A DNA stretch of 44,683 nt from Sphingobacteriales bacterium. GTDB lineage: Bacteria > Bacteroidota > Bacteroidia > Chitinophagales > Chitinophagaceae. Within the stretch, counting starts at the first letter, position 1. Each line of letters starts with the position of its first letter. Shown here in pieces: positions 199-2,610 of the stretch. The stretch spans positions 1 through 44,683 of the forward strand of contig JAIXWS010000034.1 in NCBI GenBank assembly GCA_027491165.1. The letters run 5' to 3'. The notes beneath the pieces are model-generated. The model was not told the DNA's origin and did no database searches. It was given only the letters and a program-made list of their open reading frames with translations. Position numbers and translations under genes: made by a program.

Positions 199-273
199 GG
201 AGGTAGTAGCTCAGTTGGTTAGAGCGCCAGTTTGTGGCACTGGAGGTCGTGGGTTCGAGACCCATTTATCTCC
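199..273 (+). tRNA. tRNA-His (anticodon GTG)
   Basis: A full cloverleaf can be folded by hand. The anticodon stem-loop is CCAGT-TTGTGGC-ACTGG with anticodon GTG. The T arm is GTGGG-TTCGAGA-CCCAT, and the D arm contains AGCTCAGTTGGTTAGAGC. The acceptor stem needs eight pairs, with an extra G at 199 (G-1) opposite C73 at 273. This is the identity element of bacterial tRNA-His and confirms the assignment independently of the anticodon. No CCA is encoded after C273, so the tail must be added by nucleotidyltransferase. A strong terminator follows 15 nt downstream, so this is probably a single-tRNA transcript. Confidence 0.96.
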
Positions 274-287
274 CTCGTTTTTCGACA

Positions 288-420: not shown

Positions 421-837
421 ATGGCTTTAGAAGTAATCGGAAAATTAATCGAGAAAGGACCAACCATGCAAGTGTCTGAGCGTTTTAAAAAGCGCGAATT
501 TGTATTGGATATTACAGAAGAAATTAATGGCAATGCTTATCCCAACTTTGCAAAACTCCAAGCGGTACAAAACCGTTGTGAATTGCTCGATGGTTTTAGC
601 GAAGGCGACACCGTAAAAGTGAGCTTCAATATCCGTGGTAACAAATGGGAAAAGGATGGCAAAGTAAATTATATCACTAGTCTTGATGCTTGGCGAATAG
701 AGCGCGCTGCTGCAGGCGACCATAATGCTTATCAAGCTCCTGCTGCTCCACAACAACAGTACCAAGCATCGACCCCAGCAAACAACAATTTTAATAGTAC
801 ACCCAATCCTGCTGCTGCAGATGATTTGCCTTTTTAG
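421..837 (+). CDS. DUF3127 family protein, OB-fold-like, with SSB-type C-terminal tip
   Basis: This 138-residue protein belongs to the Bacteroidota family DUF3127. The conserved core covers residues about 3-95, with the typical FKKREFVLDITEE segment, a YPNFAKLQAV stretch, GDTVKVSFNIRG and a final strand ending DAWRIE. The layout resembles a short OB fold. Residues about 100-133 form a flexible linker rich in A, P, Q and N, and the chain ends in DDLPF. That linker-plus-tip design is the one used by single-stranded DNA-binding protein (SSB) to recruit repair and replication partners. It is not a canonical SSB in its core, so no ssb symbol is given. Likely role: cytoplasmic nucleic-acid-associated protein (inference). 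It has its own promoter at 343-374. Confidence 0.85.
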   Translation: MALEVIGKLIEKGPTMQVSERFKKREFVLDITEEINGNAYPNFAKLQAVQNRCELLDGFSEGDTVKVSFNIRGNKWEKDGKVNYITSLDAWRIERAAAGDHNAYQAPAAPQQQYQASTPANNNFNSTPNPAAADDLPF

Positions 838-870: not shown

Positions 871-2610
871 ATGCGCAACACAAAGAGCAGTCTTTATTTA
901 ATATTGCCATTATTATTGTTGTTGGCGGCTTGTCATAGCACGCCCGACCATGCAAAGTACATTCCTAAAAACGCTCTGATGGTAGCGGAGGTGAATACGA
1001 AAGAGTTGTCTAAAAAGATAGCCTGGAGCATGATAACTGGCAGCAATCTCTGGGATAAGTTGCGCGGATCTTTGTCCAAAGACGATTCTGCAAAACAGTC
1101 GGAATTTATTAAAAACATGCAAGAGGCGGGGGTAGACGAATTGAACACATTCTATGCCTACCTTAAAAATGGTGGACCAAATAGCAACGAAGCATGTTTT
1201 GTGGCTTTAATCCCCTTAAAGGATGCTATGAAATGGGAGGCTTTTGTCAAGAAGACTTTTACAGAAGCGAACATTAAGGAAAACAAAAAACGCAAAGAGG
1301 CCCGGCTGTCAGATGAGATTTATGCAGGCTGGACTAAAGACCTGTTGATTATCGTGTCCCTCCAAAAGACACCAAGCAATGAATACTTTGAAGAAGATCA
1401 ACCTATAGATCCTGCGCTAGACAATGATCTATTGTTGGCTTCTCATGTAGAGTCGGCCTTTACTGTAAGTAGCGAGAACTCCTTGTTGAGTGACGAGCGA
1501 TTTGCACAATTTGAAAAGCATAAACACGACCTTGGTTTTTGGGTAAATATTGACGCTTTAATGAGCAATTACGGTTCTAAAAATATTGACGCAATGACCG
1601 GCGGCGTTTCTCTTGCGAATACCATGTGGCGCAATTCTGCTTTTTCATCGGCAACAAACTTTGAAAAGGGCGCTGTTGTGACCGACATGTTGATGTATAG
1701 CTCTGATGAACTCAAAGAAATCAACAAACAGTATACGCCAAAGCCTATAGAAGAAGACCTTGTTCGCCGTTTGCCTAGCAAGGGTTTAGACTTTGTAATG
1801 GCTTATAGAATGTCTCCTGAGGCCATACAAAAAACGATTGAAAAAATGGGGATGCTTGGACTGGCAGATGGATACCTTAAAGAGCAAAATCTTAGTGTTG
1901 CAGAAATCGTTGGGGCCTTTTCGGGCGACATGGTATTTTCCATGAACAATTATACGCAAAAGAAAGAGACCTTATTGTTTGACAGCTCTGATGCAAGCTC
2001 AACGTTTTCTAATTATAAAACAGATATGGATGTTTTGTTTGCTGTGAAGCTAAACAAAAAAGAGGCCTTCCAAAAACTACTCAATCTAGCAGTTGAATTA
2101 CAGATGCTGGAGCAGGTTAAGCAAGGCGAGTTCAAAATGAAATCGCTCAACCAAGCAGCAGATTCTTCAGTAATTATTATGAATGATCAGTATGCTGTTT
2201 TTGCAAACAAGAAACAAAAGGCAAACGAATACTTGAACAATGAGCGCGCTAAAAATGCTGCACCCATGTTGGTAAAACAACACGTATCTCAGCAACCGTT
2301 TGCTATGTTTTTTGATTACAACTCTTGGGCAAAACGCACCGGCGGGGCCATGGCGAATAACGCTGCAGACACGTTGATTTATGATGCATCTTTGAAAACA
2401 TTCCAAAACTTTGTATTCAATGGCGGCACGCTAGAGGGTAATACCTATAAATATCGAATGAGTATCAACTTTGTAAACAAAAAAGAAAGCAGTTTGGTGC
2501 AGCTTTTGGAGTTTGGTAAAGTACTACAACAAGCCCAGGATTTAAGAGACAAAGAGAATGAGGCTTTTGAAAAAATGTTGCAACAAAACGCAGAGGGCCT
2601 CGAGTTTTAA
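871..2610 (+). CDS. DUF4836 family lipoprotein
   Basis: A 579-residue protein with an N-terminal lipoprotein signal: a positive start, a run of leucines at about residues 8-18, then the lipobox LAAC with Cys at residue 21. Immediately after comes HAKYIPKNALMVAEVNTKEL, the N-terminal signature of the Bacteroidota family DUF4836, whose function is unknown. The mature part is mixed alpha/beta without membrane segments, so it should sit as a lipid-anchored protein in the periplasm or outer membrane. The C-terminus is charged and helical (residues about 550-575). The gene starts 33 nt after the DUF3127 gene with no terminator between them, so they may be co-transcribed. No catalytic motif is visible. 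Confidence 0.82.
   Translation: MRNTKSSLYLILPLLLLLAACHSTPDHAKYIPKNALMVAEVNTKELSKKIAWSMITGSNLWDKLRGSLSKDDSAKQSEFIKNMQEAGVDELNTFYAYLKNGGPNSNEACFVALIPLKDAMKWEAFVKKTFTEANIKENKKRKEARLSDEIYAGWTKDLLIIVSLQKTPSNEYFEEDQPIDPALDNDLLLASHVESAFTVSSENSLLSDERFAQFEKHKHDLGFWVNIDALMSNYGSKNIDAMTGGVSLANTMWRNSAFSSATNFEKGAVVTDMLMYSSDELKEINKQYTPKPIEEDLVRRLPSKGLDFVMAYRMSPEAIQKTIEKMGMLGLADGYLKEQNLSVAEIVGAFSGDMVFSMNNYTQKKETLLFDSSDASSTFSNYKTDMDVLFAVKLNKKEAFQKLLNLAVELQMLEQVKQGEFKMKSLNQAADSSVIIMNDQYAVFANKKQKANEYLNNERAKNAAPMLVKQHVSQQPFAMFFDYNSWAKRTGGAMANNAADTLIYDASLKTFQNFVFNGGTLEGNTYKYRMSINFVNKKESSLVQLLEFGKVLQQAQDLRDKENEAFEKMLQQNAEGLEF

Follow-up and report, generated by a model that had tools for sequence, protein, structure and literature searches.

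DUF3127, a candidate second SSB-type protein with an acidic C-terminal tip in Bacteroidia

The question raised by this locus was whether a small DUF3127 protein, encoded close to the start of its contig, is a second protein of the SSB type. The initial annotation had described an OB-like core followed by a disordered linker and a DDLPF end, and had proposed from these that the phylum has a second ssDNA-style hub or a competitor for the partners of SSB. In bacterial genome maintenance, partner proteins dock mainly at the SSB tip, which E. coli cannot do without, according to the available portions of two papers (PMC10164576, PMC13220808). The window, meaning the whole stretch of DNA that was analysed, is 44,683 nucleotides long; its relevant features, and two from elsewhere in the same genome, are listed in Table 1.

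Phage members of the family are already known as SSBs in annotation (PHROG 4932 and RefSeq phage records), and one phage paper, in the portion available, notes a protein that has both DUF3127 and an SSB domain (PMC8004638). Our literature search found nothing on the chromosomal DUF3127 family, on its tip or distribution, or on loss of the SSB tip beside DUF3127. On a second SSB or the SSB tip in Bacteroidetes it returned either nothing or side material, as far as the available parts of those sources go (PMC3991886, PMC5686142).

Table 1. Location of the DUF3127 gene, its parts and its neighbours in the window, and of two further genes of the same genome
Feature	Location	Strand	Basis or remark
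DUF3127 gene	421..837	+	138 aa; ATG start, TAG stop; ends NPAAADDLPF
Predicted OB-fold core, SSB/PriB type	430..702	+	Residues 4-94; PF11325, AlphaFold2, fold searches
A/P/Q/N-rich linker, predicted disordered	718..819	+	Residues 100-133; translation, pLDDT, conservation 0.19-0.20
SSB-type acidic C-terminal tip DDLPF	820..834	+	Residues 134-138; conservation 0.92-0.98
tRNA-His	200..274	+	ARAGORN; upstream neighbour, outside the system
DUF4836 protein	871..2610	+	Pfam PF16120; downstream neighbour, functional link unsupported
Main SSB of the window genome (L002)	G000:C73:2066-2377		Ends EDNLSF
DnaB of the window genome (L519)	G000:C7:53895-54689		Ends DPMDEEAPF; tail long, flexible-looking

Predicted fold of DUF3127 and its probable kinship with SSB

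The Pfam DUF3127 model (PF11325) matched residues 4-94 of the window protein with 75 bits against a cut-off of 27. AlphaFold2, run as a monomer prediction on 64 sequences (the window protein and related loci), gave pLDDT values of about 83-96 in blocks spanning residues 1-100, with strands at residues 3-17, 23-35, 38-49, 64-78, and 81-95 and a helix at 50-58. Residues 102-128 had pLDDT values below 50, so the linker is predicted to be disordered. Translation, Pfam, and AlphaFold2 thus agree on the core, linker, and DDLPF end that the initial annotation had described, and that observation is confirmed. The nearest relatives found were in Chitinophagaceae-type MAGs; at L194 the full-length proteins share 83% identity.

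When the model was compared with the PDB by Foldseek, there were 195 matches at E <= 0.001, the best with E 6.8e-7. Nearly all of the best 50 of these were SSBs, with PriB as well, and they included Salinibacter ruber SSB and S. aureus SsbB. VIA gave Z scores of 11.3-12.6, with 83-100 residues aligned, for matches to PriB and to SSBs of bacteria and mitochondria. PriB was the highest match (Z 12.6 with 88 residues aligned, then 12.5 and 12.3), and the SSBs, at Z 11-12.2, were tied with it within about 1. We conclude that DUF3127 has a predicted OB fold of the SSB/PriB type, as the annotation had supposed; a common fold is no proof of function.

Profile comparisons pointed in the same direction. 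PHROG 4932, a family named "single strand DNA binding protein" to which the window protein belongs, aligned over its entire length (positions 1-117 of 117) with residues 3-138 (E 2.1e-22), tip region included; the SSB label of phage members in PHROGs and RefSeq is itself based on homology. A DUF3127 profile compared by hhalign with 24 canonical Bacteroidota SSBs gave 96.4% (E 1.3e-9); the alignment covered 40 columns, which lie at the beta4-beta5 hairpin. After both tails were cut, the value was 75.7% (E 2.4e-5). Matches to D. radiodurans SSB were weak. The Pfam SSB model (PF00436) had no match to the window protein at E <= 1 and none over its cut-off among 26 aligned members, one of which reached E 0.062, whereas PF11325 matched all 26, the window protein included. 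These sequence comparisons support homology of DUF3127 with SSB, even though the family lies outside PF00436. The likeness to SSB rests on the fold, the profile match, the phage context, and the conservation of the tip, rather than on five residues alone.

Among known systems, bacterial SSB of the E. coli type has the same arrangement of OB fold, low-complexity disordered linker, and acidic DLPF tip in a single small gene; DUF3127 differs in being a separate family with no Pfam SSB match over the cut-off and in coexisting with at least one true SSB. PriB has a similar size and shares the SSB-derived OB fold, though its role is another one. To our knowledge PriB has no linker and no acidic PF tip, whereas the window protein carries both a linker and DDLPF. 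SsbB and SsbC of B. subtilis and S. aureus are SSBs of the PF00436 type, and DUF3127, unlike them, is not recognised by PF00436. They are likewise additional SSBs in one genome (for SaSsbC, according to the available part of the source). There is a precedent for a DUF that proved to be an acidic-tailed SSB of phages, the DUF2815/T7 gp2.5-type SSB (Enc34 ORF6). It belongs to another class of SSB, marked by a long capping helix, and the part of the description available mentions no PF tip (PMC5686142).

Distribution of the family and conservation of its tip

DUF3127 was present in 115 of 198 genomes sampled over the phylum and in all 49 of those from the class of the window genome. A larger sample of the class had it in 370 of 396 genomes (by genus, 183 of 196), mostly as a single chromosomal copy. 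Its absence from 26 of the 396 class genomes (three of them in the window's own family) and from 83 of the 198 phylum genomes indicates that it is dispensable in some lineages. To call it a property of the phylum, as the initial annotation did, was therefore too wide; it is a class-wide one.

A tip was scored when a protein ended in PF and had at least two acidic residues among its last eight. The ORF ends were examined in all 115 positive genomes of the phylum sample. Ascertainment bias, with the tip itself used to find homologues, was considered and set aside, because for these main counts the DUF3127 ORF was picked by its OB core alone, with the Pfam model or a core-only HMM. The acidic PF tip was kept in 49 of 49 genomes of the class and in 60 of 66 outside it, so the possibility that the tip is not conserved in orthologues, which would have told against the annotation, was not borne out. 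Four of the six exceptions belong to one family, one ends NLPPF, and one (G077) was matched in two pieces. In the four (G001, G006, G011, and G016; loci L352, L353, L355, and L356) the protein still ends in acidic residues, for example SDVDDD, and has lost PF. One genome, G045, has a second DUF3127 copy near a contig end (L080, C12) that ends DQPF and has no acidic tip; this copy was tallied separately from the first and is not among the 66.

Measured against the window protein, mean conservation per column was higher at the tip than in the core, and lowest in the linker, in each of three alignments: core 0.55, linker 0.20, and tip 0.98 with 21 sequences; 0.47, 0.19, and 0.92 with a wider selection of 26; and 0.60, 0.19, and 0.95 with 64. 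As background, 1521 unrelated neighbouring genes with products of 100 aa or more were examined; only 4 had a PF end, and 1 had a tip. On these background counts and the conservation, we rejected the idea that the tip arose by chance or from low-complexity sequence. The pattern [DE][DE][FLIMV]PF-stop occurred once in the window genome, in the DUF3127 gene (820-837); because the reversed control pattern also occurred once, a single match per genome is unremarkable, and it is the conservation that carries weight. We gave no weight to the finding of the tip in 80 of 80 genome-contig loci, because that set, like the viral set described below, was ranked by whole-protein tblastn, which may favour tip-bearing copies.

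The same pattern, run over six genomes, also found DnaB and the small subunit of exonuclease VII. In 28 genomes of the class (L499-L526, the window genome included), DnaB ended in PF in 26 and had a tip as defined above in 24. Our literature search found no account of an acidic PF tip on DnaB. The exonuclease VII small subunit (PF02609) of Thermoflavifilum thermophilum (G007, L458) ends QTENEDLPF.

A conserved repair operon around chromosomal DUF3127 was sought in 175 loci, 150 of which yielded a called DUF3127 gene, and none was found. The neighbours varied by lineage and included dnaA, aat, alaS, and an RNase_T exonuclease, identified by Pfam on representatives only. A gene of the dnaA family was present in 41 of the 175 loci, lying near and divergent from DUF3127 in Chitinophagaceae-type loci (L225-L273). 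It was one to three called genes upstream in 34 of the 41; its identity as DnaA was checked with Pfam on one representative.

Phage copies and the canonical SSB of the same genomes

By tblastn, DUF3127 was found in 97 phage records, comprising phages of Flavobacterium, Cellulophaga, Nonlabens, Riemerella, Tenacibaculum, and Bacteroides and one unnamed phage. In IMG/VR at least 530 stretches encode a relative (530 of 600 among the pattern matches listed). Ten phage regions were inspected, and in these the gene lay within early or DNA-metabolism regions, in the company of varying sets of genes for Erf, a YqaJ-type exonuclease, RecT, NinB/Orf, NinG, primase/helicase, replication-initiation, and DnaA-like proteins. 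In 90 phage and viral stretches, 87 of which yielded a called DUF3127 gene, the recurring neighbours were an exonuclease family, phrog_5715 (41 stretches), primase-like (38), primosomal/O-like (19), NinG (14), and Erf (10) proteins, each family being identified from one representative.

None of the ten whole phage records contained a canonical SSB (PF00436) above the cut-off, and the two weak matches were the DUF3127 genes themselves. An HMM built from canonical SSBs recognised, at E <= 1e-3, 15 of the 87 called phage and viral DUF3127 proteins; it matched nothing else in the stretches. The plain reading is that DUF3127 serves these phages as their SSB. A strict tip was present in 8 of 10 phage DUF3127 proteins. 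Of the viral ORFs, one had no stop and was excluded; 63 of the other 79 carried the strict tip. Three viral copies (L137, L158, and L177) run past LPF by G, NEEL, and S, respectively, and these added residues should spoil the free-carboxylate contact and tip docking.

All PF00436 proteins were read in 36 genomes, consisting of 25 of the class (the window genome included) and 11 relatives, some of which are incomplete MAGs in which an SSB may be missing. One genome, G545, had no SSB match and was left out of the 36. Tail strings of SSB and DnaB were transcribed by hand for the tally. The window genome, which is 97.7% complete, has two PF00436 proteins, the longer of which is the main SSB of Table 1; the shorter is tipless. 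No PF00436 protein ended in PF in 5 of the 36 genomes, and in all five DUF3127 ends DDLPF. These are the window genome, T. thermophilum, a second Thermoflavifilum (G555), G547, and G012. In G547, a close relative of the window genome, SSB ends DDNLDF; G012, from another family, has a single SSB, which is short and tipless. We considered whether a frameshift had removed the tip from Thermoflavifilum SSB and rejected this, since a check by eye downstream of the stop showed no in-frame tip and the SSB of G555 is tipless too. A further close relative of the window genome, G546, has a main SSB ending DDISF, but its other PF00436 proteins bear tips.

The converse case was also found: in G006, G011, and G016 DUF3127 lacks PF, and SSB retains an intact DLPF tip. 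No genome in which both proteins were read was seen to lack the tip on both. This complementarity is suggestive and is not a statistical test. The DNLSF end of the window-genome SSB has its change at the position of the Pro-to-Ser substitution of E. coli ssb113; in the window's clade natural changes may be fixed at the very proline whose mutation to Ser makes SSB113 temperature-sensitive. In E. coli that substitution weakened RecG binding from 3.1 to 23 uM (PMC10164576), made growth temperature-sensitive, and left the cells sensitive to DNA damage, while losing the tip was lethal (PMC10164576, PMC13220808), as given in the available parts of these papers.

Two other kinds of PF00436 protein were noted in these readings. 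Many Bacteroidia genomes have a short second SSB with no linker or tip, ending like EILLLGK (L003, L402, L404, L439, and others). Several have a divergent third type with a DLPF tip (L409, L422, L423, L424, L451, and L484), possibly SSBs of mobile elements or phages.

Possible roles of DUF3127

We consider it likely that DUF3127 is a second ssDNA-binding protein of the SSB superfamily, with a tip by which it recruits the partners of SSB, and that in some lineages it may be the main hub. The N-terminal OB domain would bind ssDNA, as the fold, the homology, and the use by phages suggest, and the disordered linker would present the DDLPF tip. The tip would then dock at the same hydrophobic-pocket/basic-lip sites that the SSB tip uses on proteins of the RecG, RecQ, PriA, and RecO type; this docking is proposed from the near-invariance of the tip and by analogy with the established behaviour of E. 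coli SSB. In most Bacteroidia DUF3127 would work beside canonical SSB, and in the few lineages with a lost or altered SSB tip it would probably be the main or only tip-bearing ssDNA hub. In phages of these bacteria, their own DUF3127 copy would replace canonical SSB.

The main alternative is that DUF3127 is an adaptor or loader resembling PriB: its OB fold would have been turned to protein contacts or replication restart, and its tip would recruit partners, but the protein would not coat ssDNA in the manner of SSB. The fold fits this role equally well, PriB having the top VIA scores with the SSBs close beside it; a PF00436 SSB is available for coating in every class genome read for it, and dnaA lies near some of the loci. 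We nevertheless regard it as unlikely, because both the tip and the use by phages speak for a role like that of SSB: PriB is not known to have an acidic PF tail, and the phage genes adjoin exonuclease and annealing genes, the usual place of an SSB, with no other SSB there.

The competitor proposed in the initial annotation, for instance a domesticated phage gene that sequesters SSB partners and so regulates recombination, would be in keeping with the wide spread of the family in phages and viral contigs and with the match between its tip and that of the host SSB. It seems to us very improbable, given the near-universal and mostly single-copy chromosomal presence in the class and the retention of the tip where SSB is tipless and there is nothing to compete with. 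The fold, the scarcely varying tip, and the use by phages speak for the hub, and "partner or substitute" describes the relation to SSB better than "competitor" (5 of 36 genomes), so the earlier interpretation is partly supported. Just as little probability attaches to an OB protein that acts on RNA or in regulation, its acidic PF end being unrelated to SSB partners. OB folds are functionally promiscuous and genetic data do not tie the chromosomal gene to DNA repair, but the best structural matches are DNA proteins, the phage copies lie in a DNA-recombination context, and such an end was found in only one of the background genes.

The reading of DUF3127 as a second tip-bearing ssDNA-binding protein can be extended, with a good deal less confidence. 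Thermoflavifilum, the window's clade, and the family of G012 might have moved the essential recruiting tip from SSB to DUF3127, so that SSB would mainly coat and DUF3127 would bring the enzymes. Together with the tips on DnaB, this would make a re-wired network, peculiar to the class, with the tip on multiple carriers. We hold this to be possible and, on balance, doubtful.

If the class does carry this docking address on two families of ssDNA-binding proteins, and some members carry it on DUF3127 only, then models of SSB partners based on E. coli would not carry over to Bacteroidota. DUF3127 would be a likely missing component of replication, repair, and phage recombination in these bacteria, and may be a candidate host-adapted SSB for recombineering in them. 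The natural losses of the SSB tip render the question of which protein is the hub directly testable.
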